Shown here piece after piece: positions 3,001 through 60,213 of a DNA stretch of 64,000 bases. Numbering within the stretch: position 1 is the stretch's first letter; every line of letters starts with the position of its first letter. The notes under the pieces were generated by a model. It made no database searches and was not told the DNA's origin. It worked only from the letters and a program-made list of their open reading frames with translations. This DNA is from Geosiphon pyriformis (taxonomy: Eukaryota; Glomeromycota; Glomeromycetes; Archaeosporales; Geosiphonaceae): positions 273,156 through 337,155 of the forward strand of contig JAAOMT010000494.1 of NCBI GenBank assembly GCA_016748015.1, given 5' to 3'. A program made the position numbers and the translations under genes.

Positions 3001-4371
3001 AATGTTGGTCTTTTAGACATTCTGGGTTCTTCTGGCTTTGTGTCTATCTGTGATTGTCTTTTGCAGGTTAATGCAAGGGTGTTGTCTGTCTATACTGATG
3101 GGTCATTGTGAAATTTGAGTACAGTTGGCTGTAAAACAAGTGCTGCAGCTTTTTTTGAGGACATTGGTATGGGTTTGGGTGTTGGTGTGTCTGGCTTAAT
3201 GTCATCTACCATGGCTGAGTTATAGGCAATTGTGTTGGCTCTCGAGTGTGTTTCTGTTTTTAGTAATGTCCATTTGTTTTCGGATAGTCAGTCTGCTTTG
3301 GATGCTTGCAAATCGGAATTGGATATGATGGCTCCTGATTTCCGGAATTGATGTTGGATTAAGCATTAGCACATTGCCAACGTTATTTCCAGTAAGGTCC
3401 TAAATGTTACTTGGCACAAAGTCAAAGGTCATTTTGGGGTTTTGGGAAACGAGCATGCTGATGTGATTGCCGGTGCTGATTCTGTTTCTGACTGGTTTTT
3501 TCCTCATCACCTGGATGAACACTTTTTGATGGCTGATGACAACATTGTTTCTGGCAATTCAAGGCACTTTGTCCATGACACTTTTTATGTCATGTGTCAT
3601 GCACGTTGGAAAATGGGGTCTGGTTCTAAATTTTTGCCTAACAACTTGTGGGCTGATGTTGATTGGTCTCACTCTTCTTTGGTGTGGCATCCTGATTTGC
3701 ATATGGTCACCAGTTTCACTAGCAGGATTTCGGCTAATGCGCGCTCTTATTTTATGAAGGCTTTGCATCATCAGTTGCCTGTGGCTGTGCAAAAACGGCT
3801 TTATAATAGACTTTATCTCAGTGTGTTGTGTTTATATTGTGATGACGTAGAGGTGTCAGATCATGTTTTTTCTTGTAAAATCAATGATTCTGCTCAGCGT
3901 CGGTTGTTGGATTCTCACATGAACACTTGGAAGACACTTTCTGGTTCTTCTGTCTTTTTTTCATGTTTGTTGCAGTTGTTGTCATCTTGTGTTTCAGGTT
4001 CTTCAGTGTTCATGGCTCTTCATAAGGGTTTTGTTTTTGATAATTGGTTTTGTGAAGCTGTCTCCATTTTCCATAGTCCCAAGACGGCATGTTTGAAGGT
4101 TCTTAATTTCACACATTTTTTTGGCCTCGCTTTTAGGGATAAGATATTGTTGGTTTGTGCCAAACATTGTGCCTATATGGAAAAGCACAGACTGATTTTT
4201 TTAGATGGCTTGTTTCCTACTTCGGTCTCTGGTTTGGCTTTGTGTCTTTTTGCTGGTGTGGTTGATTTGCTTGGTATCGATGAAGCTTTTAGTGTGCATT
4301 TTGGTTTTCGCAGGTCTTGCATGTTTTTTTCCAGCATTGGTAATTCGGTTTCTGTCTATATAGCTGCATAG
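1..4371 (+). pseudogene. LINE ORF2 (endonuclease-RT-RNase H), copy A, inactivated
   Basis: Broken polyprotein of a non-LTR retrotransposon. In order it shows the AP-type endonuclease end (GSDFNED near 130, DTDHKAV near 345), the RT fingers motif (LPDGKAAGLLGISNELWKH near 1222), RT motif C as FVDDT near 1988, and an RNase H domain with YTDGS near 3094, an FSDSQSALDA helix near 3280 and a GNEHADVIAG end near 3448. One frameshift lies near 780-830. After it the frame runs to 4371 but is interrupted by single nonsense codons, for example TGA 570, TAA 1099, TAG 1624, TGA 2398, TAG 3223 and TAG 3367. Several stand exactly where copy B has TGG, CAG or CGA. Domain identity is secure; activity is excluded. 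Confidence 0.9.
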
Positions 4372-7212: not shown

Positions 7213-7339
7213 TAAATCTTTTTCTCGTCAATCCTCTGACTACAACAAGAGTAAAGAATAAATTTTGGAGGAATCACTTTTCTTTTTCTCTTTTCCCTAG
7301 TTTTTTTTAGTTATTTCTCTTTCTACCTACCCTTTTGTT

Positions 7340-9235
7340 ATGATGGAACTAGTGGGCTCTTCTGCTGGTGGTTCGAGTTCTGGTTCAGCGGATTTGAAGA
7401 CTCATTCTGGTATTAAATCTAAGTGTTTGGCAGGCTTCTACTTGCATGATGCATCCTATAAGAAGCCAAAAAAACCTGTTGGTGTTAGTGTAGTGGACTC
7501 ATCTGCTGGTTTATTGTGCTCAGAGGGGTTGGTTGGCTCTGGTGTCAAGCCTATAATGTCTTGGACAAGCAATGCTGGTAGTGTTGCAAGTAGCATTGGC
7601 GATCTCTCAGACTTAGATGAGTTGAAGAACATGGTTGTGGAGGAGACAAGTTATGTTGATTCTGGTGCTTTAAATGATGAGAATATAGACAAAACCACTC
7701 ACAGAAAATTTCAAACCTGGACTTACATGTTTAATAAACTGCTTGCCCAACTTTTTTTTGACAATATTGGTGATGATGACGACATCTTGGAGCTCCCTCC
7801 TTAAACGTTAAGTGGGTCTAATCAGTTGCCTCCAATTGCATCACATGTTCTGGAAAAATGACATTTTGATTTGGCAAAATCTTTTGCGATCAACATTGAG
7901 ATCTTGGCGGTTCCTGAGAAGTCACTTCTAGATAAATTAATGTTGGTGAAAAATTTTTTTTACAAGATAGATGGTTTTGGGGATGCTTTAGCTCCCTCAA
8001 AATTTTCTGGTGTAATAAGATCTATGTTCACCTCTGAATCAAGTTTAGTGAAGACGAAGGAAATGGTGATTAGTGTAAAAATCATGGTAAACAATGATCT
8101 CAAAAAGTTAAACAGCTGCTCAAATCAGGAAATAATTGTCAAAGAGATTCCAGTTGATCTTCCCAAATCAGTGATTGAGACAGTATTCTCCAAATTTGGC
8201 AAAATTATATTAATTAAGATACAATTAATTGGGCTTTGGCAAAAGACTTTGGTGGAATTTGAGTATACTGAAACTGCATGTTTGGTCGTGTCTAAATAGT
8301 CAATTCTCGTGAGTAAGGATTTTGTGCATGTTGCTATGGCCATCAGTGACAAGGAGCTATGGATTTCGAGAGACCGTTATCATGCTTTGTTGTACACCCT
8401 TCCAGTCAGTACTACTGCACATGATCTTTCTGAGTTGGTAAAGGCTTATGGTGGGAAAACATGCTTTATTGGCCAAAATTTTAGTTTATATGTTCGTGAT
8501 AGGTGTGTGGTCATTTGTTTTGAAAGTAAGGCATTCAAGTCAGCTGCTATTAGTTCTGTTTCTGTTTTCAAGAGTGTAAGTTTGTGGTGGACTGGTTTTT
8601 CTTTGGCTAGTTGTACTCAGTGCAAACAATTTGGTCATAGTACAATCAACTGTTCTTTGGGTAGAAATTCTGGTATCTATGGGAAACAAGTATTCTCTGA
8701 TCAGAATCGGGTTCGTCTGACTGGCATTTATAAGAAGAAGCTGGCTTCTATCTCCTGTCCCATATCTTTCACTGGTAAAACTTGGGCTCAAGTTGCTGGA
8801 GGTTCCAATTCTCACATGGCTTCATCATCTCCTTCTAGTAACGGTTCGCTGTTGGCCGTGATACTTCTCTCTCAATTTTCTTTGGATGTGAATAATAAGT
8901 TTGCCACTCTTGAGCACAGTCTCGCCAGCCTTGCTGAGCAGATTGATAAGCTGGCCAAGAGATTGGATGCACTCGAGCTGACAGTTTCCCAGCATGGCCC
9001 TGGATGTCAGCCATTGGTGACCTCTTCATTACAGAATCAAGGGGCAGATACAGTGATGGGTAAGGGTTTGGGTGCAGCCACTAGTGGTGGGACTGTTGCA
9101 GAGATGGTTGTTTACAATTCATTGGCAGTTTCTAAATTGAAAGATACTTTGGATATTCTTTCAAAAACTGTTATGGGCCTTTCAGCCAGGTTAGAAAATA
9201 CTGGTTTGGGTTTTGGAGCACTTTTTCCTCAATGA
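7340..9235 (+). pseudogene. LINE ORF1 (nucleic-acid-binding, CCHC), copy B
   Basis: ORF1 product of the element, the RNA-binding chaperone-like partner of the reverse transcriptase. It reads in a single frame of 632 codons from ATG 7340 to TGA 9233. Only three nonsense codons interrupt it (TAA 7802, TGA 7859, TAG 8297) and there is no frameshift. Copy C still reads Trp at the position of the third one. A CCHC zinc knuckle of the spacing C-x2-C-x4-H-x4-C is encoded at 8612-8653. A heptad-like Leu-rich stretch near 8880-8980 may form a coiled coil. The stop overlaps the ORF2 start as ATGA. The family is clear; the exact role is inferred from other LINEs. Confidence 0.85.
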
Positions 9236-12200
9236 CTGACATCATTTGGAAGATGACTACATGTAATGTTCGAAGTATAAACAATTTTACAAAACAAGAA
9301 GACATTGTGTATTGGCACAAAGATTCATGCAATTTGGTTTCCATTCTCATAGAGACAAAGTTGAAGAATAAAGCTCGTCCTTGGTTGGCTAGCAAGTTTG
9401 ATGGCATTTGTGTTTTCTTTTCTGATTTGGCCTCTGGCTACACTGGAGCTGGTGTCATAATGGTTTTGGACAATTTTTTAGCTAAGCATGTTAGTAAGAT
9501 TTCTGAGGTTTCTGGCTGTCTTTTCTGCATTAAGTTACTGTTTAAGAACAAACTTTCGGTTTCTATCTTGGAGCTTTATGCTGGTGCTTCTTTGACTGCT
9601 CAGTTTTCCCAAGCTGCCGAGATCAATTTCTTGATTGTGAGGGCTGTTAATGAATCTTCTTTTGTTATTCTTAGTGGTGACTTCAATGAGGATGATTCTT
9701 GAAATTGTGCCAGTTTCAAAAAATGCTTTGATTTGGGTTTGGTTAATTCTCTGGGGGGGAAGCTCTTCTGTGAAGTTACCTACTTGGTGCAACTCTCGTA
9801 GTGTCACTAAGACAATTAATTACATGTTTATTTTGTCTAATTTGATTGGTGTGGTAGTAGATCATAATGTGGCTGCTGTCAATGACTATTTTGATACTGA
9901 TCATAAGGCTGTTTCTGTATCCATAAGTCTTGGTGGTTTGCTGGATATACAACTGAACTTTTTGTGTAAACAGGCAAATAGGGATCATTGGAAATATAAT
10001 TTTAAGAGTGCTAATAGTGCTAAGTAAATCAAATTCAAAGAAAATATGGCTGCAAATGCTGCCATGTTTTGTGATGAGTTTGGTGCTGCTGGAAGGAGTT
10101 CAGATTTGGACTCAATATGGAATGCTCTCCGCCAAGTAGTGTGCTTGTCAGCAGAAAGTGTTTTTAAGAAGAAATGGTTTAAGAGCTATGACAGTATCTT
10201 TAATAGGGCATCCTCCAGGTTTCACAAATTAGAACTTTTGGTGTTAAGGATTGTTAAGGCCTCACGTCTGGCTTCTCTTGATAAGTTTGTTTCCCTACTT
10301 GGCTTATGAAGTGGCCTTGATTCTATCAATGCCTCTGTTGTTAGGTCTTTTTTTCTTTCGGGTTTCTATTTTGATGCCATTCGGTCAGTTTTGGCCAAAA
10401 TCAGAAAGTCTTATCCTTCGTCTAAGTTGTCAGAATTGGACTGTGCTAGGAAGTCTCAGATCAGGTCGGTGATTGACAGAAGAATGGAGAGCTTTGAATT
10501 GAACAAGGGTCATACTATTAGAAGTGTTTTGAAACACCTTTTCCGCAAAGTGGTTTTAGACCATTTAGTAGTGGGTGATGAGCTGATTTTGGAGCCTGAT
10601 CTTGTGAAGTCTAAGGTGGACATGATTATGGAGAATTGAACTCGATTACATCAGGTGGTCACTGATGTCTCTGGTGATTGGAATTATCAATATTAACCTT
10701 TGAATTATGTTTTTGATGAAGCTTTTTCTGATGTAATGAGTTCAATTAGTTTTGATGAGTTGTTTGGAGTGGTTTCTGGTCTGCCTAATGGCAAAGCTGC
10801 TGGCCTTTTTGGAATTTCAAATGAGCTCTGGAAGCATTGTGATAGATCTGTTTTGGATATGCTTTTGGTGCTTTTAAATTTTTGTTTGTTGTGTGAATTA
10901 ATGCTTTGCTCCTAGAAAGAGACATAGGTCTCAATAATCCCTAAACCATATGAATGGAAAGGTGTACTAACAAATACATGTCCTATTGCTTTGATTGAGA
11001 TGGCTCATAAAATTCTTTCCAAGATTTTCTCTGATTGGATTTTGTTGGCATGCAGCACGTTTGACGTTTTTCATGGTGACAACTTTTCAGTTTTAAAGGG
11101 TACATCTACACAGTCTCCTATTTTTGCAGTTGGTTCTATTGTTAAAAATGCCCTGGAAAAGAACCGTGAGCTCTGGCTTGTTTTACAGGACATGAAGAAG
11201 GCATATGACTTAGTTGGCTGGGAGCATCTCAGTAAATATTTGGTTAGAATTAAAATGTGTGGCAAGTTTATTTGGTTTTTTGGTAGTATTTATCAAGGTC
11301 GCACCAATCGAATTATGATAGATTTTGGGCTGATGAGTGATTATCATGTGCACAATAGTTTAGACCAAGGGGAAGTCTTTTCTCCTTTCTTGTGCGAAGT
11401 CAAGCAACAGAAGAGTGTGTATAGATACAGACTGAATTCCTATTTTATTTCTAAGAGTGGTCATACTGAGTCTCAAGTTAGATTTTTTATGTTTTTTGTT
11501 ACTGGTGTCTTTGTCGATGATACAATTTGAATTGGTAGCAGTCTGAAAGCTATTCAACATATTCTCAATGTTGCTAATGAATTTTTTCAAATCAATAACA
11601 TTTTAATTAACAATGACAAGACAGTGGCCATCTTTATTAATAGCAGGGTCAGCAATCCTTTTCTTTTTATCAGTGGTTCACCTATTTCTATTGCCAAAAA
11701 GGGAGAGTTTCATCAATACTTGGGTATTTTTCTCTCAATTAAGGGCCTATTAAAACCTAGTTTGGTTAAAGCCTATTCAGATATTCATTTTTTTACCAAT
11801 CTGGTTCTAAGGAAGGCTATCATGGATAAACAGATCTTGTATTTAGTTTCAGTGGTTCTCTATTCTATAGTTAGTTATAGAACCCAGTTTAGCTTTGTTT
11901 CTGTTGGTGCGTGCAACAAATGGAATGCCATAATTTGCAAGGCTTTAAAACTCAAATTTGGTTTACCACTCAATTTTCCTGGTGATATAATTCACCACCC
12001 TTCCTTTTATGGTCTAAAGTCCTTTTTGCAGGTTTAATCTGAGAACAAGGTCACCTCTCTTATCAGTTTTGTGAACTCCAGTGGTATTTTGGGCTGCTTA
12101 TTTTCTTACAGATCTCATGACTTACAAGTTTTGTGTTGGCATCCTGTTTACCTATTGAGTTGTCCAGTTCGTATTTATGTCAGTGCTTTTAATAACTTTC

Positions 12201-13893
12201 TGGCTGGCCTGATTTGCATACTTTTTGATTGCAATTTGTCTTTGGATGGCTTTTCGGCCAATGCATTTCATTTTAATAGTGAGGTGCCAATGTTGGCTGT
12301 TCTTGGTAAGTCAAGATTTTTTAAGTTTCTTCTATCTCTCCGGCATTATGGTATAGCTTTTGTTGATTAGCTTTGTGATTGTTATGGTTCTGTTTTTAGT
12401 TGGTATGCATTTAAGCAGTGGAAGAGGTTGGACTTCCATGGCCCTATCCCTGATTGATTTAGGCTTTCCACTGCATTTCTCAATGACATGACTTCTTCTT
12501 CTGCTCTTTTTTCAGTTTCAGATGATGTTGGTCTTTCGAATATTCTTGGTTCTGGTGAATTTTTGTCTGTCTGTGATTATCTCTCATATGTTGAAACTGG
12601 TTGTTTATTTGTTTACATGGATGGATCTTTGAGGAATTTGGATATGGTTGGCTGTAAAGCTGGCACCACTGCCTTTTTTGAAGACATTGGTTTGAGTTTA
12701 GGTGTTGGCATTTTGGGTGTGATATTGTCCACTCTGGCTGAGCTACAAGCCATTGTTTTGGCCCTGGAATGTGTCTCCCCTTCTAGTTCAGTTCACCTGT
12801 TTTCAGATAATCAATCTGCCTTGGATGCGTGCAAGTTGGAATTGGGTCTTTTGTGTCCTGATTTTCACAGTCAGTGCTGGGTTAAGCGTCAGCATATTGT
12901 TAACATAATTCATGGGAAGAATTTAAGGGTTAGCTGGCATAAAATCAAAGATCATTCTGGTGTAGAAGGGAATAAGCAGGCTGATGTGATTGCTGGTTCT
13001 GATTTTCTTTCTAGTTGGTTTCTTCCTCCTTGCTTGGATGAGCACTTTTTGGTGGCTGATGGTGTTGTGATTTCTGGTAACTCTAGATATTTTGTCTGAG
13101 ATGTTTTCCACTCCATTAGTCGTGCACATTAGAAAATAGGTTCAGGAGTTAAGTTTTTAGCAAGTAATTTGGTTTTTGAGATTGATTGGTCGCGTTCTTC
13201 GTTGGTGTGGCATCTGGATTTGCATATGGCCGCTGGTTTTACCAGCAAAGTCTCAGCTAATGTGCGCACTTATTTCATGAAGGCTTTGCATCATTGGCTG
13301 CCTGTGGCTGTTCATAAACACCTTTATAATAGGTTTTATCCTCGTGTTTTATGCTTGTATTGTGGTAAAATAAAGGTGTCGGATCATGTATTTTCTTATG
13401 GAGTCAATGATTCTGCTCGGAATTGGTTATTAAAATCCCACGTGGAGTCTTGGAAGGCATTTCTGGATTGTCTCATTCTTCATCAAGTGTGTTGTATTTG
13501 TTGTCATCTTGTGTCTCTGGTTTTTCAGTGTTAATGACTCTTCATAAAGATTTTGTTTTTAATAATTGGTTTCGCAAGGCTGTACTTGTCTTTTATAACC
13601 CAAAGATGGCTGGTTCAAAGGTTGTCAAGTTTACGCATTCTCTTGGTCTTGCTTTTAGGGATGATATTTGGTTGGTTCATGTGAAACATCATGTGTACAT
13701 GGAGAAGAACAGGTTGATTCCTCTAGATAATTCGATTCCTATTTCATTGCCTGATTTGTCTTCAAAGTTTTTTGCTGGTGTGGTCAATTTATTGAGAATG
13801 ATTGAGACTTTTAGTATTAGCTTTGGTTATCACAAGTATTGCTTATTTCTTTCTGGTATTAGTAACTCAGTTTTTGTTCATATAGCTGTGTAG
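9232..13893 (+). pseudogene. LINE ORF2 (endonuclease-RT-RNase H), copy B
   Basis: Starts at ATG 9232, sharing four bases with the ORF1 stop. The AP-endonuclease shows CNVRSI near 9262, an ETKL near 9352, GDFNED at 9675-9692 and DTDHKAV near 9895. The RT shows LPNGKAAGLFGISNELWKH near 10782, DMKKAYD near 11191, NSLDQGEVFSPFLC near 11352 and FVDD at 11510-11521. The RNase H shows YMDGS near 12615, an FSDNQSALDA helix near 12799 and GNKQADVIAG near 12969. It carries two frameshifts, one at a G7 run near 9755 and one near 13440-13530. At least a dozen single nonsense codons break it, including 9700, 10025, 10307, 10637, 10913, 10925, 11528, 12035, 12368 and 13097. Dead, but recently enough that every domain is legible. 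Confidence 0.9.
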
Positions 13894-25497: not shown

Positions 25498-27549
25498 AAT
25501 AATTGAGTTGTAAAAAATAATTACAATTGAATTACATTTGTAAAACATAAATCATTTTGTGTTAAACATATTAAAAAAATTATTCTTTTTTTTATTAATG
25601 ACCATTTTTTTATTAAATAAAAATACATCAAATTTAATAAAGTCTAATAAAAAGAATAAATTTTTATTTGTTTCAGAATATATTAAAGTTGATTTCACTT
25701 CACTAATTGAAAAAATATTCTTTGATAAAAAATATTATAAATATGAAAAAAGATTTATATAGTTGTTTGTTTAGATACTATAATCCCTAATTTAAAGGTA
25801 TATAACTTAAATATATTATATATAATTAAATTTATTGCTTTTTCTCTATAATTTTTTATTATATAAAATAAACAGTACATGTAATAACAAGAGCAAATAA
25901 CGATGATAACAGGGACAACTGCAATAACAATAATAATAGCTGCAATAACGACGAAAACGATTCTGTTAATCCAAAGATCACCCATCTTGAATTGTTGCAC
26001 TGATTATCATCGCTGTAAACCGAAGATACAGTTAATCTGGAGGCACAATCAACTTTTGATTAACGAAAATCATCATGTACTTGTTTTTTATGTATATTAT
26101 AACATTTGTATTAAGATAACTTGAATAAAAAAAAATTAGCTGAATTTGTTTTTAAAGTTGTTCGCCTTAACTTTTTCGCCAGAACTGTATTATACGCTAT
26201 AAATAATTTATTAAAATTACAAATAAATCTAAATAATTATTAACACATAAAATAAATTAATAATTTGATAATAAAATTATTATTGAATAATTCTCTTGAT
26301 ATTATTATATATTAATATCATTTTTTTAAATTATTTATAACCATTAATTTTGAAACTTTGAATTAAATATTATAAAAAATTATTCAAAGGATTTGGCATG
26401 TTTAACTTTTTCATAATAGTGATTTTATAAATTTCAACAAATTTTTGTAGTTTTTAAATACTAAATTTTCTCTAAATTTAAACTTTTAATACTATAGTTT
26501 GTGCACTATTTATTTTATGTATATTATAATGTTCATTATATTTTATTTCTTTTATTAATTATCGTATTCTGAAATCAAAATATTTTTTGAAACTTTTTTC
26601 TCCATTATAACCCATTTTTCCTGTTCGAAAACTTGATTATTTTTGCTTTATGTATATTCAAAATAAAGAATTTGAATAATTATTTAAATAGAAATTATAA
26701 TTGATATTAATTTTATATTTACCAAATCTTACAAAGTTATAAAGTTTTTGTTAATATCCTGAATTTCTTTAAAAGTGTACAAATAAATAGATTTTCAGAT
26801 TAGACATATTTTGAAATATTTTAATTAACAAAAAAAGATAAATATGAGCGATTCTATTTGTATTCGACAGGCTAAATCTAACCTAATAGATCTGTGATCG
26901 AAGCTATGATTTTCTATTTGGACTGATATGTCAACCAGTAGTGATTTTCCTCTTTCCCAATTTAATTTTGTGTAATCCAAATAAAAACCTAAAGTGAACG
27001 TTTTTATTGACTACTTTTCATACCTGTAACGGTTTTTCGTTTACGGTTTGCCATATGAAAAAAAAAGACACGAGGAACGCGGTCTTTCTAGCCACAAACC
27101 TTAAAAGTAACAAAGATAAAATGATGAAGATTATCTTGACGGGTAAACACTTGATATGATTGGTGTGCATGGCAATCGCGAGATAAAGAAAAACCAATAT
27201 TACAGGTGTAAAATTATCATTTTTGGAAATTGAGCGCGTGTTTAAATCAGTCGAAGGGAAGATTTGGTAAACACAAAAACTTTGGAAAAAATGAATATTA
27301 TTAACTAATTTCAGTTGATTCACTTTCTGTCACCAATCACATGAAAAATTTGGTTAACTATTAAAGTGGTCGGTCAAAAGCTTCTCATGGTAAAACTTGC
27401 GTTTTTTCAAAAAAAAAACTCCACGAGAGTTCATTATTTAAAGATTAACGTCAAACCTTCCCATTCACCAACAATCAAAGTTTAATAAAACAACAAAACG
27501 CGTTTTACGTAAAATCACGCTAAAAGACACGTAAAAATTAGAATTTATA
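25498..27549. other. Intergenic region upstream of the DUF8032 gene
   Basis: AT-rich to about 25860, then a less AT-rich patch (25900-26060) holding a possible small membrane ORF listed separately, then AT-rich sequence again. From about 26840 composition rises towards the 27550 start codon. The last few hundred bases (GC-containing words such as ACGCGTTTTACGTAAAATCACG near 27498) probably hold the promoter and 5-prime UTR. A 101-codon minus-strand frame at 27018-27323 was judged unconvincing. Confidence 0.5.
25755..25985 (-). CDS. Possible small single-pass membrane protein
   Basis: Unrecognised. From ATG 25985 the minus strand reads MGDLWINRIVFVVIAAIIIV, and then a further hydrophobic run with ICSCYY, giving one strong membrane segment of about 25 residues near the N-terminus. 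This local composition (Val/Ala/Pro/Cys codons containing G and C) is unlike the surrounding AT-rich DNA. The second half (about 35 residues) is Lys/Ile/Asn-rich and could be non-coding if an intron or a different end exists. Two stops lie in frame just upstream of the ATG. No family match is recalled. Confidence 0.25.
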   Translation of the reverse strand: MGDLWINRIVFVVIAAIIIVIAVVPVIIVICSCYYMYCLFYIIKNYREKAINLIIYNIFKLYTFKLGIIVSKQTTI

Positions 27550-30162
27550 ATGGAAACAAATAACTGTCAGAAGCCTTGCGAATTTCACCATACTTCACCA
27601 ACATTTAATATGGTCATGCTACCGCAATGCTTTGATCCACAATTCGAACAATTCTTTTCCATCTTACCACAAGATATTGGAATTGGAACGATTTTTGACC
27701 CAATCGCTCAAGCAGGTTCACAACCGATTAGCTTGGAAGAATTGATGGATCCATCACTGAAATTTCATAATCTTTTCTCAATTATGTCACCAGTAGAAAC
27801 CAGAAATGAGTTGGAACGAAATTATCTAGCTGAATTTCATGAAGCCAACTTCTTGAATGATATTAAAACTTTGACAACTATAAATAATCATCAATCGCCC
27901 GATTTCCCTGAGGTCAACTTCCTACATGATATTGGAAACGTAACACGTCCAAATAATTATCAATCACCTGACCTTCATGACGTCTGCTTTCCTCAAAACT
28001 TCAGGAACGTAACAGACTTGAATTTTTGTCAACCACCTGCACTCAATAAGCCCACCTTAGGGCAAGATTTCAGTACCGAAAAAAATAAAAAAATAAAAAA
28101 TTTCTTCGAGGTTAGCTTGCCTCAAAAAGACGGCGTAAATTATCACAATGATCCAGAGTTTCCTGACGTTACCCTACAAGATTTAATGGAGCCATCCTTT
28201 GAAGTCGAATATCTTCTTTCTAACTTATCACGAGAACAACTCGTTGCCATTGAAAAAAATCTGAATAAGGCTAAAAATAAAAAGCTCAATTTAATGAAAG
28301 TCCCTAAAGATGGTCGTGTAGAAAAAAAGGTGCGCAAGCCGAAGCCTACACCTCTTATATGTCTACCGACACCTCCCAGAACTATTCTATATCAAAATAC
28401 AGGGTTAGCCACGCCACAAGAAAGCACAGATTCTTTCCTCGCCAATTTTAGCCCTAAATCAGACACGAATTTCTATACGAAATCGGAAACACAATTCTTT
28501 GGACTTGAAACGCCCCTCACCACGCCAACCAGTATCATGAATAATTTCTGGATGGATCCTATTAATCCAAAGTTGGAAGGATCTGCAGCACAATATACAT
28601 CGCCACAAGAATCCAAACCTCACAAATATAACTTTATTAGTTCAGAATACAACAATATACCCCTTCCTAAACCAGGTTTAAATTCCTCTGATAAATTAAA
28701 GGCTGAAGCAGCTTCTGCCCACAATAAAAATACCACCATTCCAAACCAAGAATCCTCCGATATCTTGGATGGCCTTAAATTTAATACAGACCAACAGCAA
28801 CGATTTCCAATTCAATCATCCCACCAGAAACTCGGTTATGAAAATTTTAACTTTGCGTCCTCTGAACCCAAAGAAATTACCATTCCAAAGCTGGAGTTGG
28901 ACCCTTTTTCTAAATCTAAGATTCAGGAAATTTTTGGATCTATGGAAAATATGCCGGTAACCAATGAATTGGCCATGGAATATCCTGGAGTAGAATCGAT
29001 GATCTTCAGCTATTCACATCATCACGTGTTGAAGACATACCGCATTCGAACTGATATACAAAATGTGGATATCAATTTAATTGATGAACAATTCAAAAGA
29101 GACAATTGTGTAAGATATATTTTTTTCAGATTGGATACAAGTTTTACAAATTGATTCATATTTATTAATTATTAATTTCTTGCATAAAATCTATTATAAC
29201 TTTAGATCTACCCACGCGCCTTTTGTCTTCCAGAGGCTTATAATGGTAATCGTTGGATATATGAAACCGAATGTAATTCCCTTGGATGGATATTAGCTTT
29301 TCTAAACCCAGAAGAACTCGGTGGCAAACGAGGTCTCATACAAAGAGCTGTTGACTCATTTCGTAATCGACAACCAGGTTCAAAGTCACGAAGAGTAGCT
29401 CGCCAAGAAAAGGTGATGAAGGGCACATTGCGCAAGCGCAAGGCCTCATATCCTGGAGATGAAGACGCTCGTCCATTAAAGCGTAAATTAGCAATTTCGC
29501 ACAAGCCGAGAACCATCCTTCTCGAAGATATTGTTTCAGGAACGAAGATCAGGATCAAAATCAACGTTGAAGAGGTCGATTTAAATCAAGTTGACTCCAC
29601 TTTCAAAAGAAATAATTGCGTATATCCTAGAGCAGCCTTTTGTACTCGTGAACAATACACTGGACGTCGTTACGAGGAAGAAGTAGGGTGTAATGAGTTA
29701 GCTTGGAAATTGGCAAGTCCTTATAAACTGTAAAAATTTTTCTCTTTCATAAATCGGAAATATTCTAATAACAGTTTTAATATCTCCTTTTCACCTTAGG
29801 CCTGGCTAAACCCCCGTAGTTTGGCTAATAAGAAACGGCTTCTTCAACTAGCGATAGATCTTTACAGAACGAGGTTTACCAGCAATTTTAAACCTCGTTC
29901 TGCTCGACTACCAGAAGATTTCGATATCCAAGCCACCACCTTCATTACAAACCCTTGTAATAACATTGAGATGGAGACCCATGCGGCTCCAGCAGAAATG
30001 TTGACGACAAATGAGACTTTATTAGATAACCTGCCGCAAAGAAAAATATATTTTGAAAATTTGCCGCCCGAAGGTTATGATAACTTTTTACTTGGTTGTA
30101 ACCAGCCAAATGAAATGCCCCTTTGGCATTATACTGATCTCGCTGACGAGCAGCAATATTGA
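27550..30162 (+). CDS. Tandem DUF8032 protein, three exons
   Basis: Spliced model: 27550-29109, 29206-29712, 29800-30162, giving 809 residues. DUF8032 is a fungal family of unknown function; I recall its hallmark (FK-x2-NC-x-YPRA, a Tyr/Asn-Gly-x-Arg centre, ECN-x-LGW-x-LA-x-LNP, KRGLIQRAVDS-(Y/F)-RNR). Here the domain occurs twice. The first has FKRDNC at 29092-29109 spliced to IYPRAFC, then ECNSLGWILAFLNP and RGLIQRAVDSFRNR (about residues 485-585). The second has FKRNNCVYPRA, GCNELAWKL, then AWLNPRSLANKKRLLQLAID (about 620-725). Both introns cut the domains. Intron 1 is GT-AG and intron 2 uses a GCAAGT donor. The N-terminal 480 residues are Asn/Pro/Ser-rich with internal repeats and look disordered. 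A regulatory or DNA-associated role is possible but unproven. Confidence 0.85.
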
Positions 30163-34384: not shown

Positions 34385-34591
34385 CCCCACTACTAGTGAT
34401 ATATTGAGTGACGTCAACCTAAAGGTAGTAGGGATGCCATAAGCTAAGTTTGGCAAGCCAGGGACTTTGTTCTATTGTTAAAAATTTGTCTAATATCGTA
34501 AAATTTCAGTGAACTCTATTACAGATATTATACTATAAAGAACAGATAAAAAGATATTACACTTGATCTTAGCCAAAAGGTTTGAGAGGAT
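34385..34591 (-). pseudogene. U2 snRNA-like sequence, probably a pseudogene
   Basis: On the minus strand from about 34591 the sequence reads CTTTTGGCTAAGATCAAGTG, identical to the highly conserved U2 snRNA 5-prime region, then TATCTGTTCTT in the right order. However the branch-site recognition GTAGTA of U2 is GTAATA here, about eight extra bases (around 34549-34556) split the stretch before ATCTGTTCT, and the 5-prime stem is decayed (CTCTCAAACC for CTTCTCGGCC). Further 3-prime only weak similarity remains (for example TGGCATCCCTACTACC). These faults in bases that pair with introns and U6 point to a dead copy. A divergent functional gene cannot be excluded without expression data. Confidence 0.65.
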
Positions 34592-38987: not shown

Positions 38988-39495
38988 ACCTCATTTTCAA
39001 AAACAATAACTAAATAAATAAAAATTTTTCAGCATTTAATTTAAATAAAAATTTCATAATCCAAAGAAGTTTCCTTGCATCCAATGGATAGATATTAAAA
39101 AAAATATTTTTTACGTTTATGTTAGAATTATTAAGTAGGAAAAAGATGAATTCTTCCTGCGGCCATCATCAAATAGAGTTTATTTCTCACCGCTTCCAGA
39201 AAATGGGTCTCATTTTAAATTGAAAATCACAATGAGAAACAAATACTGTACATTCGTTTATACATGTGGTTTCAGTACAAAGTACATTCCTTCCCAGACG
39301 ATCTCTATCCGTTTAATAATCTCAATGACAGAATCTAACATTGTGGCGTCTAAGAATTATTCAAAGCGAATATGATTTAAAAAAAATCATACGTTAAAAA
39401 TCCTTATTTATTAGCCAGGTAAACTCTTTCAAGTCCTTCTTTCACCACACAAAATTTTTATAGTTTAATAATCCCTTTGTGTTTATTTAAAAATC

Positions 39496-42408
39496 ATGCT
39501 TTCAACATCATCAATTTCAATTGAAAATGTAACTTCACATTTCGGCTGGGTTGAAGGAGCATTCATTGTCATTAAAGAAAGTTTGAACAATTTTCCAAGC
39601 GACAATTATTCAAGAATTGCTGACTTTGTTAAAAAATATTTTGAACGCAATCATAAAACACCCGAAGATTTATTCGATTACTTAAACAATAAAAGTTCAA
39701 GAAGTTCAATAGACTATATTTTGCTTGGCTTTTCTTTAGAACATGGGGTTGGAACTATTCCTAATTCAAAAAAAGCATTTTTAGAATTTCAGAAAGCAGC
39801 GAATTCAGAATTTTCTTTTGGACAATTCTTCTTAGGTCGTTGTTATGATCATGGAATTGGTACTCATCCAGATCGAGGAAAAGCATTTGAATTCTATTCA
39901 AAAGCAGCCGAGATGGGAAATACCCTTGCACAAAACACTCTTGGATGGTTTTATCTAAATGGATTAGAAACAGCGAAAAATGTGGAAAAAGCATTTAAAC
40001 TCTATTCAAAAGCAGCAGAGTTGGGAGATACAATGGGACAGAACAATCTTGGATGGTGTTATCAAAATGGATGGGGAGCAACGAAAAATCCAGAAAAAGC
40101 GTTTGAACTCTATTCAAAAGCAGCAGAGGCGGGAAATATTCTTGCACAAAACAGTCTTGGATGGTGTTATCAAAATGGATTAGGAACAACGAAAAATCTG
40201 GAAAAAGCATTTGAATTTTATTCAAAAGCAGCAGAGGCGGGAAATATCCTTGCACAAAACAGTCTTGGATGGTGTTATCAAAATGGATTAGGAACAACGA
40301 AAAATCTGGAAAAAGCATTTGAACTTTATTCAAAAGCAGCAGAGGTGGGAAATACAAATGCACAAAACAACCTTGGATGGTGTTATCAAAATGGATTAGG
40401 AACAACGAAAAATGTGGCGAAAGCATTTGAATTCTATTCAAAAGCAGTAGAGGGGGGAAGTTTAATTGCACAAATAAATCTTGAACATTGTTATCATGGT
40501 GGAAATCCATGTTCAAAAAACAATCTTGAAACGTGTTATCGAAATAGATGGGGAACTATGGAAGACCTGGAAAAATCATTTAAACTCTATTCAAAAACAA
40601 CGGAGGCGGGAAATCCAAGTACACAATATAATCTTGGATGGTGCTATCAAAATGGATGGGGAACAACAAAAAACCTAGCAAAGGCATATGAACTCTATTT
40701 AAAAGCAGAGGGAAATAAATTAAGTTATCAAAGTGATTTTCCTGATTTGAATGGCCATAATCTCACTTTAAAGAATCAGGATAACCTGGAGCGTTTTATT
40801 TTGCAATTCCAAAGTCGAGGTTTTAAAGGTCAAGGTAATCCCAAAGGAGAATTTTTAGATTCTGAAGCTTTCTTTGATCAGCTGTCAGACGAATTCAAGT
40901 GTTATAAATGTGGTAACTTGGGTGTAATCATTAGTGGATCTCCTATATGTCCATTTTGCGATACTAATAAAAGTGATGATATCTTTGAAGCGGGGTTACC
41001 GAAATGTCCAGAATGCTATAGCACATTAAAAGATCCACTTTGGTGTAAATTTTGTGAATATTCACGATTTTCAAAGAGTTGGGGAATATGGAGTAGTGGA
41101 AATGATAATATTGATCAGTATATAGCAAAAACACAGGAAATTTCTGAAAGCTGCAGAGGCTGCCTGGAATGGATTTCTCCTGACGAGATTACATTTTTAG
41201 AGAAAGTGGGAATGGGAGGGTTTGGTATTGTTAAAAAAGGTAGATTGGAGAGAGGCAAAATTCTATTTTGGGACGAGAAAAATCAAAAGCATGAACGAAG
41301 CGGGGTTACGAAAGTTGCTTTGAAATTTCTCAGAAGCAGTCAAAATATAAAATATATTAATTCAGATGAGGTACTTCCTTTCAAGAAATCTATGTGATTT
41401 TTATTATTCTAATTTCTTTTTCTAACATTAGAAAACATTTTGAAATAGTTTATTGCACATCTTAAAAGTGCCTCTTGCAAATACATCCTTGAATGCTATG
41501 GAATAACCAAAGATGTTACAACCGATGAATTTATTATGGTTTTACCATTTGCGGAACATGGGGACCTTAAAGCTTTTCTCAGGATGAACGAAAACCCTCT
41601 TACTTGGAAAATGGTTCTTTGTATTCTTTTTCAAATCGTTGGTGGCCTAAGGTTTATACATGAATCAGAACTAGTGCATGGAGACTTACATCCTGGCAAT
41701 ATCCTTGTTTTGAAATCAAACCCCTTAAAAGTTGTCATTGCTGACCTAGGATTCTGTCGTCCTGCCAATTACTCTCCACAATCTGGGGAGATTTATGGCG
41801 TTGTCCAATACCTAGCGCCCGAAGTTTTTACTTTATCGTGTCATACCAAATACAGCGACATTTACAGTTTTGCTATCATTTCTTGGGAAATTATTTCAGG
41901 AGAAAGACCTTGGAATGATATTAAAGATTCTATGCATGATGTAATTTCTGGAAAGCGCCCCACAATTGAAAAGCATACACCTCAATGCATTCAAGAAATG
42001 ATCCAAAAAAATTGGCGTAAGGATCTGGATTGTCGTGATACTGCAGAACAACTTCAACAAAGAATTATTGCTGCTCGCGGTAAATGTAACTTAAATGAAT
42101 CTATCTCTAAAAAAAGAAGTGTTGCCTGTGATATGATAAGTTATAAAAGTCGATTAATCTTAGGAAGTCAATCAATGTCAAAGCCTATATATGGTAAGTT
42201 TTTTTATTTAGTATTATTTTAATAGGTAAAGAACTTGTTTTGATTAAACGCCTTTTTTTCAGATTTGGAATATCCCAATAGCTCAAGTTATCTATTTAAC
42301 TACTCAAGCTCTAATAAAGTTTACTTTGATTCCTCTAAGTGTGAGGTTAAGTGTCTCCTTATCAATGATGCTGGAACTGTTGATAATATGCTAGAAAAAA
42401 CTAATTAG
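39496..42408 (+). CDS. Sel1-repeat / zinc-ribbon / protein kinase fusion
   Basis: Three exons (39496-41370, 41449-42193, 42263-42408), 921 residues. Residues about 70-420 hold about nine Sel1-like repeats of 36 residues (core LGWCYQNGLGTTKN, KAFELYSKAAE), a TPR-like scaffold for partner binding. Two zinc-ribbon-like cysteine pairs follow: CYKC...CPFC (about 468-490) and CPEC...CKFC (about 503-520). The kinase domain has the glycine loop GMGGFG (572-577), VALK (Lys610), HGDLHPGN (Asp704, Asn709), DLG (724-726) and APE (748-750). The HRD arginine is Gly, so it is a non-RD kinase, and DFG is DLG; the catalytic Lys and both Asp are kept, so activity is plausible. This architecture is typical of the huge Glomeromycotina kinase expansions. 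Substrate and pathway are unknown. Introns 2 and 1 are GT-AG and join in frame. Confidence 0.9.
40135..40350 (+). repeat. Two nearly identical 108-bp Sel1 units
   Basis: Consecutive Sel1 repeat units 40135-40242 and 40243-40350 differ at about three of 108 bases, while other units in the gene are more diverged. This indicates a recent in-frame tandem duplication or gene conversion within the coding sequence. Confidence 0.9.
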
Positions 42409-51638: not shown

Positions 51639-52350
51639 TTATTCGTTGCCTTCAAAGACGAGAACATCATAATCATTTTGACGAAGTTCACTTTGCTTAT
51701 ATCCAAAGGATCCACCGTCCGCCAAATGCTAAGGTTTGATTTCAAAAACTCAATTAGACAAAGAATGCAAAATTTATCAACTTGCTAAGATAATAATGAC
51801 ATATGGCTGAATTTACCCTGCCAGCTTTTCCATAAATCCAACCATGACCAGCTGGATGAGGAAATCTAGCGACATACAGTTCTTTACCATCTCTTTCGTA
51901 ACCAGCCCTGAGGGGAATATTATTTTGTGGACGAACTTCACCATGGCTTTTTATGCGTTATTTTAAATTGGAGGAAATTTAAAGATGATAAAAATCATTT
52001 CGAGATTGAATTCTCCAATTATAACAAACAAAATTGTAATTAAACAATGGGACTTACAATGCCTTCCATTTAAATTGATCCTGAGCTTGAGCTGTAGAAG
52101 AAAGACTACCGCCGATATTAGCTGAAAGAACCTTGTAATGTTTCAAAATGACCTCCTTGCCACCATAACCTATATGTAACCCTTGATTGGTGACATATCC
52201 CGGATGCAATCCACCCTCATATTCACCAACTCCAATATGTTGACCGTCGTAGACGAAAGCGTTGCCACCAGTGTGACCATCACTTTGGTCTTTCCATACA
52301 GTTGCCCAGTGATCTTGAGATACTGGCGAAGAGAGAGATTGATCTGCCAT
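51639..52350 (-). CDS. DM9/DUF3421 domain protein
   Basis: Minus-strand model with exons 52058-52350, 51817-51946 and 51639-51728, 170 residues, introns GT-AG, phases agree. Two DM9 repeats fill the protein. The first runs from WATVWKDQSDGHTGGNAFVY to about residue 82 (GEYEGGLHPGYV core); the second runs from FKWKAFHGEVRP to the end, with ERDGKELYVARFPH in the middle and a YDVLVFEG C-terminus. DM9 proteins of animals bind glycans such as mannose and can accompany a pore-forming domain; no such second domain is present here. There is no signal peptide, so a cytosolic carbohydrate-binding role is a reasonable but untested guess. A TATA-like box lies about 40 bp upstream of the ATG. Family call firm, function unknown. 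Confidence 0.85.
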
Positions 52351-52387
52351 TTTAATTTCAGGTGAGGTCCTGTAGAGAAATCACACG

Positions 52388-54596: not shown

Positions 54597-56450
54597 ATGG
54601 AAGCGGAAATTCGGTGCAACATTGTTCTATGCCGTAAAGTCCTCAGCTCAGAAGGACGTGCTTGCGTCACAACTTGCTCCCGTAATATACTGTCGCTCTG
54701 CACTGATTTCTTTGGCGATCTCTTGCTAATTCTGGATCTTATTATTTCCTTTGGCTTCCTGTTTTCCAGACATATTTTGTGGTATGCTTCTTTTTATGAC
54801 TGGATTTGAACTAGACATCATATTAACAGTCCAGCATCGATTTTTTCGTGATAGTTGACTGCGCGAATAAAGCCTTCTCTTCAGCCTTGGTATGTCCAGC
54901 GTGCGAAACTAGTTTAACAGAAAAGTATTCATTTGCTTTTTTATATTCTTTGTCAAGCTGATCTTATTCTACGTTGCAAATATATATCTGATTTATTCAT
55001 GCATTCGTGCGCTCCTATATTTTAAATAGCGATGATATTGTATTTGCAGACTTGAATCCTAATGAAGATTATAAATCTGTAGGTGATTTCATTCAATTTT
55101 TCTCTAATCTATTTCTTTGCGATAGGTTTTTATAATTTGTCCAAAAAATCATTTATGACTTGATCATAAGTCCGTTCTTTCAGGCCTTCGCCCCGATATC
55201 GTTATGGAAATCTGCACTCGAGCTCTCTCTTTCTGGACTTATCAAACTACCCAGGAAGCGTGTTTTCAGGAAATTTTATATAAAAATCTAGAGGAAAAGT
55301 ATACTCAAATCGAGAAAAATTTACAAGGAGTGATGAGAGACGCCCAAGCCGAAATCAACAGTGAGTTTTAATTATATATTAAATAAATAAAATTACCAAA
55401 TACTCAACTTTATATGTAATTCTCAGCATTGAGTGATAGAGTATCAGGTAAAGATCCTATTGATAATTTAATTCATGTCTTCCACAAAGGTCATCGCCTT
55501 AGATATCTTTCTGTTTCTACAATAAAGCCTTACAAAAAGATATTGAACTCGAAAAACGAAAAAGTCATGACCTATCGGAACAACTGCAAGAAAAAGGAAG
55601 ACAGTTTTCAAAGTTACAGGTTGATTTTATGAATATCACTCTTGATATGGGTTCCACTTTGCCAACTATTTAGATTATTTCTTAGGTGATGTATGACAAA
55701 CTCAAACGTCGAACTTTAGTTCCAGCAATGCAACAGACGATACAGAATGTGGTTAGTTCTGGCGCTGCAAATGGGGCTACCGGAAATAATCTTGGTATCA
55801 ATTGTAACTTAGGGACAAGGAAGGTCCCTATTGCTGTGGTAGGGTGATTTTTTGCCAATGAAATAGTTTTATAAATGTTTTCATTTTTCTTGATTTGAAA
55901 TATTTATTAAAACAGCAAGCCGGGATAAATCGAAGGCCATTCGCAGAAAATCTTGTTAATCGCCCCAATCATAATTCACAAATCTGGAATACTGGTTGTA
56001 AGAACGGTGGCCAAGGTATAATTCATAATATTATGGTTCTCGTTTGTATTCTAATACTGCTTTAATCAATTTACTGAGGGACCAATTTAAACAGAGAATT
56101 TGCAAGACCCGTTTTATGCCCAGCAACAAAACTGTCCCTCTAGTCTTAACCGAAATCAGTCACAGCATCCCAAAGGTTATTCCTCATACCACGGAATAAC
56201 ATCTAGCGCTAACATGGGCAATGATAGCTTTTCTACTAATCTAGCAACTGCTGGCACAAGGCGAGACTCGAATTCATTTCAACAAAAAGGTAGATATTTT
56301 GGTCTTATTAAGATTTCTACTGAAGTAGTTTTTTTAATATTCAGTTTATTTCTAATAACCTTAGCTTCTGTCGGTCAATCTCGAAATCGATTCGCCGTTG
56401 GACAAAATACAGCCATGGGGATGACACCGAACGGAGGCATGAGAGGATAA
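54597..56450 (+). CDS. HEI10: HEI10/CCNB1IP1-like meiotic crossover RING E3 ligase
   Basis: Eleven exons: 54597-54681, 54770-54781, 54855-54924, 55030-55078, 55171-55360, 55427-55447, 55528-55619, 55686-55838, 55916-56015, 56095-56289, 56365-56450. The product has 350 residues, every intron is GT-AG and the phases agree. The RING finger is complete: Cys7, Cys12, Cys27, His29, Cys32, Cys35, Cys46, Cys49, built by joining exons 1-3. The family signature follows: DLNPNEDYKS, SGLRPDIVMEICTRALSFWT at about 75-94, then a coiled coil to about 180 and an Asn/Gln/Ser-rich tail. HEI10 proteins are SUMO/ubiquitin ligases on the synaptonemal complex that coarsen into foci marking class I crossovers. The length is somewhat above the animal and plant proteins (roughly 280-300). 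Intact frame and splice sites argue for a working gene. ZIP3/RNF212 relatives are the alternative, but the order of conserved blocks favours HEI10. Confidence 0.85.
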
Positions 56451-56952: not shown

Positions 56953-58601
56953 CTATAATATACGGTATCTTCTTTGATGCTGATCACTGGATCGTGCCTC
57001 TATCCTGTTAAGTTGCATTAAGGCAAGTAGAACAGCATTAGTGTTGGCCGTAGCACCTAGAATTTAGTAGAAAATTAGTTTTCAATGTGTATTGATGGAG
57101 AAAACCCATATCAATACCTACCGCCAACTTCATGAACTAACTCGTCATAGGTTATTTCATCATAAATTACATCTTTATATTCTGGCAAGTCTTGGTACTC
57201 TGTTGGGAGAAATTTTTAAGAAAAATATTTACTGGAAAACCAATCGAATATGATCGGTACCTCTAATCAACTCGTTGATATCATCTATAACTTGATTGAG
57301 GTACTAGATTTACGGACATAATTTATTAATAAATTCAGTGAAAAGCTCTGAAATAAATCAGTAATGTTTACTCACTTCAACTGGAACTTGAGAACGAAGA
57401 TATCCCAATGCCTCCATTTCATGTGGTTCAATAGTAGGTATTTGAACGTATCTTGGTGCGAAAGGGTCTTCAGTTTGAGAAAATAATTTTCGCTTTTGAG
57501 AAAGTGAAGAGTTGCGTTTCGGTGATATCTCATCATTCATAGTCGTCGATGCAACACGTGATGGGGTCGAAAATATTTCTAATTGAACGGAGTGATCAGT
57601 TGGAGTTTCGTCGTACCTAATGATTGAGAATACAGATATTTGTGAATTAGTATCTTTGATATGAACAGACATGTCAAAAAACAACCAGAGAACCTAATAG
57701 CGTTACGATTTTTGTTTGCACGTGCTGACATTGGAGTACCTTTTTTGAGAAAAAGGACTAAAGATCTTAGCAGTTTTCCAATAATCTCAAGATTTTACTT
57801 TTTCATATACGCACCATCCTTTAGCAATGCAAGAGCACGATTCGAAATACCGAAACTTTCAAGGGTAGGACTGTCTTGTTCTTCCATAATAAATTTCCTG
57901 GTAAATACTTTATTTACAGGAGGCGTAAGCAGTTCGAACTTTTGCGGGCGAATTTCCGGTGACACTGGAGGATCAATGCTAAGACTATCAATGGGAGCGT
58001 TAGAATAGGATATTATTTCTTTCATAGAATTTTCAGCATTTTTGTCTATGCGATTAGGAGATACTGGGATAAAAAATTTACAAAAATGATTACAGCATTC
58101 ATGATATTGTTATATGAAAAGTATCATGCCAAGAAAATTTTTACCTTCATATCCAAAGCTCCTTAATCGATTTTCTAATAATCCAATGTCATTTTGAATC
58201 TTTTTTAGCGGCAAAATCATAAATTATGATCTTTAAATTGGGTACTTTCGGAGTGTATGTATTTGTCCAAGTAACAAACCCTTAGATAAACGGCGTCAAC
58301 CGCCAAAACCATACTATTCATAGAATGTTTCATATTGGGAGTTCGCTCCAAAGCCAACGCGTCTTTCATCATCACTTTTGTTTCGGTCAAAATTTCTTTT
58401 AGGGAGTTCTCCTGATGTCCAGAGTACACAGATAGTGCGGGATTCTCAATAGTAGCTCTTAACAAAATCGTGAATTTTAAGAATGCAAGTGTTTTTTTTG
58501 GTAATGACGCGTCCAGAATTAATGGCTCTTTACCTCAGATCATAATAATCTTGTTCAAGCTTTCTGCTAAATTGACCGAGCTCTTCAAAGAATTGTTCCA
58601 T
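56953..58601 (-). CDS. SKA3-like spindle and kinetochore protein
   Basis: Nine exons on the minus strand: 58534-58601, 58280-58457, 58145-58199, 57815-58063, 57694-57739, 57376-57616, 57261-57303, 57122-57199, 56953-57056. The product has 353 residues, all introns are GT-AG, phases agree. The N-terminal about 105 residues are helical (MEQFFEELGQFSRKLEQDYY start; IQNDIGLLENRLRSFGYE end), matching the SKA3 N-terminal coiled coil that ends in a KYGY-like turn. Then come proline-rich TPP/SP sites suited to Cdk control, ESFGISNRALALL (about 166-178; human SKA3 has a similar FGIS element) and a C-terminal helical block beginning YLRSQVPVEYLNQVIDD. The SKA complex couples kinetochores to depolymerising microtubules. 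The name rests on recalled short motifs and layout, so it is moderate. The gene ends 500 bp from the HEI10-like stop, tail to tail. Confidence 0.6.
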
Positions 58602-60213
58602 TTCGCGTGTTGTGTTTGTCCGGAATGCACCTGATATAAAGACATACATAATTAGAGTCGCGAATATGTGATATGATAAAAAGTCGGTCACATGAGGCGA
58701 TCGACAGTATCAATTTCTTTTAGCTTAAATAGAGGTTTGATTTGTTGTTCTTTTTCTCTAAAGTTGTTATACTATACTTGCTCTTTCGAAGTATTTTTGT
58801 TGAGTACAGATGAAATCCTCCTCTATGGAATCAAAGCCCGGCCTATTCACCTTATTACTTTACCTTAAACATTTCATTACGTCTTTTCAAACTACAACAT
58901 ATAAACCTATACAAACGGAAATATTCAAAAAACCTCATATGACCATCACAAAAAAATTTGAATCTTAATTTCTAATATCTTAATGATCCACCGAAGATAA
59001 TGTAGATCACCGTATGTGAGAAAACTAATAAGTGTAAACTTATGAAGGAAAATTATGAATCCTTGGCAAGTTCCCTCAAGTAATTATCTTAGCAATGTAA
59101 TAAGGCCTCAAACAGAGCCCGGTCTACAACAGAACATATGAGCATAAAAGAGTAATTTAAGGCCGCTTAAAACTTACTGAAAGTACAGGAATGATTTATA
59201 TTAAATTCAGTATGTGGCTTCTTTATTTGGATAACCATTGCCATCACTGACATGATTGAAGATATCTTACAAAAGCCATAATCAAATGTCAACTTTTAAT
59301 ATGGTCCATATCTTAGGAATCTTTGACACATCGTTTACTGATAAGCTGAACTACACTGTAGATTAATCTCATTAAAATTTAGCTGCCATAAACCCAATAA
59401 ATTTTGCATACAAATCTCTACGTGGTACCTTTTTTGTAGAGCTTTCATCGTATATACTTTCCTTAATTCTTTTCTGAACTACATCCCAGTCTCCTTCATC
59501 TAATATAGAGGGTTTTTAATGATCCTTGATTAAAGATTCTTCGTTTAGTATTTGTGTAACTGTTAGTGCTTTTTTCACCACAAAAAACTTTCAATATAAC
59601 GAGGCGTAATGGGATTGAGGTGGAAATTTGGATAGGCTCAGGATCAGAGAAAGAATAGGGTAGCGAGTGAATAACTAGATTCAGAGATTTATTATTAATG
59701 AATAAGGTTAAATTTGATTCAATTTCCTAAAAGAATTTACCCTGCCCATTATATCGTTTCAACACATTTTTCTCTAATGAGCGGGACGCAGGCGCCTATC
59801 ATTGTTGCGGAAGTATGTTCCCCTTTCTCAGGAGTCAACAGGGCTCTCCAGAGCTTGCCATGCTGCCTGCCAGTGGTGATTTAAAGGAAAATAAAAAGAT
59901 GCTCGCCTCAAAAACATTAAGGAAATGTTGAACCGTTTGTTACTCTTGTTTCGATCCTGTTCTATCAAGTATTTCAAGCACTTTTAGAGTCTTTGTGCCT
60001 CCAGGCAAAAATTATTTTAAAATCATATTGGGCTTTAAAAAAGGATACATCTAAATTTATACGTTGTAAATGGTTAAAAACTATTAATTGCGAAAGTACA
60101 ATCTATGTCAGTTGCATGATACACGTGACTTATTAGCTAATTTAAACTACACTTTTTTTTAACGCATATCTTTGTTTACAAACCTATTCCCATTCAGAAG
60201 TTTTTCTTATAAT
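58602..60213. other. Intergenic region with a GC-richer island
   Basis: About 1.6 kb upstream of the SKA3-like gene. The proximal 400 bases should hold its promoter. The remainder has mixed composition and no long frame. A GC-richer island at 59770-59890 contains a 35-codon plus-strand frame from ATG 59777 to TAA 59882 (begins MSGTQAPIIVAEVCSPFSG). It is unrecognised; it could be an exon, a remnant or chance. Confidence 0.4.

Follow-up and report, generated by a model that had tools for sequence, protein, structure and literature searches.

The gene at positions 54597-56450 on the forward strand of the window, by which we mean the whole 64,000-nucleotide stretch of DNA analysed here, is supported as a complete, single-copy fungal homologue of HEI10 (CCNB1IP1). 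We put a probability of about 0.8 on the reading that this is the HEI10 of a Glomeromycotina-like fungus, with a tetrameric E3 ligase core and a self-assembling tail, and with a crossover role in a meiotic or meiosis-like prophase. The coding sequence is intact, the protein belongs to the HEI10 family, and the gene co-occurs with DMC1, RAD51, HOP2 and an MSH5 homologue, all of which the analysis shows.

Gene structure

Re-splicing by hand, checked by script, gave a gene of 11 exons and 10 introns that runs from an ATG at 54597 to a TAA ending at 56450. Every one of the ten introns begins with GT and ends with AG, at lengths of 66-105 bases, and the HEI10-like coding sequence of 1053 nt specifies 350 residues in an unbroken frame whose sole stop is the terminal one; the re-splicing thus reproduced the 350-residue, ten-intron GT-AG model without frame error of the initial annotation. 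Exon 1 (54597..54681) carries the start codon and the RING zinc ligands C7, C12 and C27, exon 2 (54770..54781), a micro-exon of 12 nt, carries H29 and C32, and exon 3 (54855..54924) carries the remaining RING ligands C35, C46 and C49 (VCPAC). The linker DDIVFADLNPNEDYKS, for which the human counterpart is DIVRTELSPSEEYKA, is encoded by exon 4 (55030..55078), and the HEI10-specific block SVLSGLRPDIVMEICTRALSFWTYQ by exon 5 (55171..55360). Within exon 5 the coiled coil begins; it occupies exon 6 (55427..55447) and exon 7 (55528..55619) and ends at VMYDKLKRR in exon 8 (55686..55838), where the low-complexity tail begins. The tail continues through exon 9 (55916..56015) and the N/Q/S/G-rich exon 10 (56095..56289) to exon 11 (56365..56450), which holds its end and the TAA stop codon. 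All 11 exons lie on the forward strand.

Homology to human HEI10 extends from exon 1 into the first part of exon 8, and 7 of the 10 splice junctions fall within the aligned region. A 347-residue model, in which intron 4 has its donor at GTAG|GTGATT and its acceptor at CAG|GCCTTC, is frame-clean, yet its alignment to human HEI10 has a 3-residue gap and reaches 135.6 bits, whereas the 350-residue model is gap-free at the junction of exons 4 and 5 and scores 146.1 bits. We prefer the 350-residue model because homology picks the junction that keeps SVLSGLRPD and because its score is the higher. From about residue 188, that is, for most of exons 8-11, the tail lacks support from homology, and the model is based on the open frame, the GT-AG sites and composition: the tail exons have a GC content of 0.43-0.50, whereas the flanking introns and the 3' flank have 0.22-0.31. 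For the gene overall, as computed on the 347-residue model, GC is 0.42 in exons, 0.29 in introns and 0.16 upstream. These data bear on whether the locus might be a decaying or non-expressed relic that looks intact by chance. We find this very improbable, given ten clean junctions, a RING in which all ligand positions are occupied, 350 codons free of stops, nearly all exons richer in GC than the introns adjacent to them, and upstream DNA near 16% GC.

Relationship to HEI10 and other crossover E3 ligases

In a phmmer search against all solved structures, the predicted protein matched human CCNB1IP1/HEI10 (PDB 9ges) with E = 1.6e-41 over residues 5-187 (183 aa), a match far beyond chance, in which 79 of 184 aligned positions (43%) are identical. 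The RING, the linker, the GLRPxIV...RALxFWTYQ block, which is a helix, and the coiled coil are aligned to 9ges continuously, and the question of the fold is answered by this solved human homologue. The claim of the initial annotation, an intact HEI10 homologue with a RING, a HEI10 block and a coiled coil, is borne out by that single alignment, by the full set of RING ligands and by the single frame. Assigned by RING spacing, the eight zinc-ligand positions (C7, C12, C27, H29, C32, C35, C46 and C49) are all occupied; the sixth is Cys here, whereas it is His in human HEI10. Pfam zf-RING_5 scored 30.7 bits on the 347-residue model, against a cut-off of 27.9. The conserved part of exon 5, used as a query, occurs once in the assembly of 124.7 Mb and 406 contigs.

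RING domains are common, and those of RNF4 and BRE1 match the protein weakly, RNF4 being the sole further solved chain below 0.001 (4.2e-06), through the RING alone. It could be asked, then, whether the protein is another RING/coiled-coil E3, of RNF212/Zip3 type or TRIM/RNF4-like, that merely resembles HEI10. Saccharomyces Zip3 and vertebrate RNF212 do share with it the general plan of an N-terminal RING followed by a coiled coil, and both are pro-crossover factors (PMC3405992). Such an assignment is very unlikely, given an unbroken match that runs from the RING through the linker and the GLRP block to the coiled coil. A provisional RNF212 sequence gave no BLAST match to the fungal protein whereas HEI10 sequences did, comparisons that served as leads only. 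Arabidopsis HEI10 (At1g53490), likewise represented by a provisional sequence, has the same layout and is 28% identical over 177 aa (2e-14), a lower identity than that to human HEI10. In this provisional sequence the first RING pair is C-x2-C, in contrast to C-x4-C in the fungal protein; the two proteins have GRA in common at the position of human Y22, and the Arabidopsis sequence is also without Y22 and W24.

Human HEI10 is a tetrameric, self-assembling ubiquitin E3, as described in a 2026 structural preprint (PMC13174674), from which we took the list of interface and tetramer residues; the Phe-rich tail and the fibre residues were not treated as family-defining. Residues of the tetramer core are kept (P80, M84, which is a conservative change, and L91, equivalent to human P82, L86 and L93), and Y72, a cavity residue in human HEI10, is identical. 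The residues of the longitudinal fibre contacts and of the inter-RING contacts in human HEI10 are changed (Y22R, W24C, R63F, L105C and Y109I, with R43 absent). The fungal tail, of 163 aa, is longer than that of human HEI10 and rich in N, Q, S and G, with 5 scattered Phe; no C-terminal Phe-rich patches or basic tip were evident in it. Its composition is as expected for disorder, and the tail is probably disordered.

Other meiosis genes in the assembly

The best PDB matches of a 170-aa DMC1 sequence (C344) are all to DMC1, from 6e-74, with RAD51 chains from 1.5e-53, and a search for the RAD51 family found a gene that reads as RAD51 (C150), besides weaker family members. HOP2 is present (C315), with a domain E-value of 2e-11. 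Four MutS genes were found, which, from their motifs and from comparison with provisional human sequences, we take to be MSH6 (C352), MSH2 (C398), an MSH1-like gene (C377) and MSH5 (C286). The last has a DEFGKGT motif and was the best of the four MutS loci for a provisional MSH5 query; the label is the weaker because no MSH5 chain was among the PDB matches. Among the partners that the class I (ZMM) crossover pathway calls for, MSH4-MSH5, MER3 and ZIP4, the searches, which covered the first three, thus found an MSH5-like gene.

In an exon-by-exon search of the genome MSH4 was not located, a provisional MSH4 query matching only the MSH6, MSH2, MSH1 and MSH5-type genes, and MER3 was not located either. 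Matches to PF02889, considered as candidates for MER3, proved to be two genes of Brr2/Slh1 type, each with a double Sec63 module, and a single SEC63 with DnaJ-like frames. Genome searches with Pfam Mnd1 and with the Pfam Spo11 Toprim domain, in which exons were searched singly, returned nothing. Since searching exon by exon can miss genes, these results do not show that MSH4, MND1, SPO11 and MER3 are absent. We nevertheless counted the four genes not located, together with the human assembly residues not kept and the want of evident Phe-rich patches and a basic tip, against the crossover reading.

Proposed role

Ligase activity, crossover function, expression and the occurrence of meiosis are all things that we infer for this gene and its bearer. 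By homology, the RING, GLRP helix and coiled coil would make up the core of a tetrameric E3 ligase, and the probably disordered tail may provide for self-assembly. During the prophase of meiosis or of a meiosis-like process, the protein would accumulate at recombination intermediates, at sites of MSH4-MSH5, and would mark a subset of these intermediates for maturation as class I crossovers, for which HEI10 is required in plants (PMC3405992).

The initial annotation confined the HEI10 family to meiotic crossover control, which is wrong as stated: in cultured somatic cells, human CCNB1IP1 has been tied to cyclin B, to progress through the cell cycle and to invasion (PMC3139512). A true HEI10 orthologue could have been kept for a non-meiotic role, for example in the control of cyclin B or of the cell cycle, or in ubiquitylation for DNA repair, within the coenocytic hyphae of a lineage with little or no meiosis. 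The stimulation by human HEI10 of the K63-chain E2s of repair signalling (PMC13174674) would fit such a role, as would the failure of the exon-by-exon search to locate MSH4, SPO11 and MER3. However, mouse mutants show meiotic failure and no other phenotype (PMC3139512), and the same genome keeps DMC1, HOP2 and an MSH5 homologue, which studies of these fungi treat as specific to meiosis. We therefore regard a purely non-meiotic role as unlikely and favour a function in crossover formation.

That an intact HEI10 is direct support for cryptic meiosis, as had been proposed for this locus, is an overstatement, because the presence of a gene is indirect evidence and because comparable genes are already known in these fungi. 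DMC1, MSH4, MSH5, SPO11, HOP2 and MND1 have been published for arbuscular mycorrhizal fungi (PMC6281316), for which a complete set of meiosis genes is reported (PMC6281316, PMC9453076). The intact HEI10 adds one consistent gene to the case already made, but it falls short of direct proof of meiosis and does not by itself show sex. More tentatively, and with somewhat less conviction than an even bet would call for, we suggest that an early-branching Glomeromycotina fungus has a working class I (HEI10-MSH5) pathway, and with it an undetected meiosis with interference-type crossovers, in which the assembly surfaces and tail of HEI10 are unlike the animal form.

Our literature search on HEI10 and arbuscular mycorrhizal fungi found no paper, which is weak evidence that HEI10 has not previously been discussed in this fungal group; automatic annotations may carry the gene. 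Whether these ancient plant symbionts have sex has long been asked. In animals, plants and Sordaria, HEI10 serves to mark crossover sites cytologically, so that a clean gene model offers a handle for testing meiosis. Antibodies, in situ RNA detection or stage-specific RNA-seq for HEI10 could provide a more direct test than further lists of recombination genes.

Surrounding window and identity of the organism

The assembly is consistent with Glomeromycotina in the GC content of the window, which is 27% as a whole, in its Sel1-repeat/kinase genes and in its SSU rRNA. At 39472-42222 (forward strand), adjoining frames encode a Sel1-repeat protein and, after it, a protein kinase domain; fusions of Sel1 repeats and kinases are common in Glomeromycotina. 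A single SSU rRNA was found with the AML1 primer pattern (L031; G000:C320, about 1046257, reverse strand). It has 1 mismatch to AML1, 1 to AML2 and 3 to the Archaeosporaceae probe ARCH1311, and it differs at more sites from AM1, from VANS1 and from GLOM1310, a probe for Glomerales, than from AML1 and AML2, all primer and probe sequences being provisional. This pattern leans to Archaeosporales, which include Geosiphon, and the fungus is possibly not an arbuscular mycorrhizal one of the typical kind. Changes occur in this SSU rRNA at normally invariant sites, for example CCTGCGAAAAGATC for CCTGCGGAAGGATC, and because of these substitutions it may be a degenerate rDNA copy.

Downstream of the HEI10 gene and convergent with it lies a multi-exon gene (57358-58709, reverse strand) that has SPTLESFGISNRALALL and an N-terminal EELGQFSRKLEQDY stretch; it is without a Pfam match, and has a putative resemblance to the kinetochore protein SKA3. 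At 52054-52380 (reverse strand), an open frame, GHTGGNAFVYDGQHIGVGEYEGGLHPGYV..., is like a DM9/DUF3421-type repeat, its PF11901 match (E = 0.0058) being below the cut-off. At 27535-29733 (forward strand), a duplicated motif (xxFKRxNCV...) occurs in large open frames that gave no Pfam match and may be akin to a transcription factor of DUF8032 type. Two degenerate non-LTR retrotransposon copies, with GC above that of their surroundings, lie at 66-4371 and 7301-13893 (forward strand); frames for an endonuclease, a reverse transcriptase and an RNase H-like domain were recognised by eye, and the two frames tested gave no Pfam match. A full-length U2 spliceosomal RNA gene is present at 34403-34591 on the reverse strand (Rfam RF00004, 79.8 bits).
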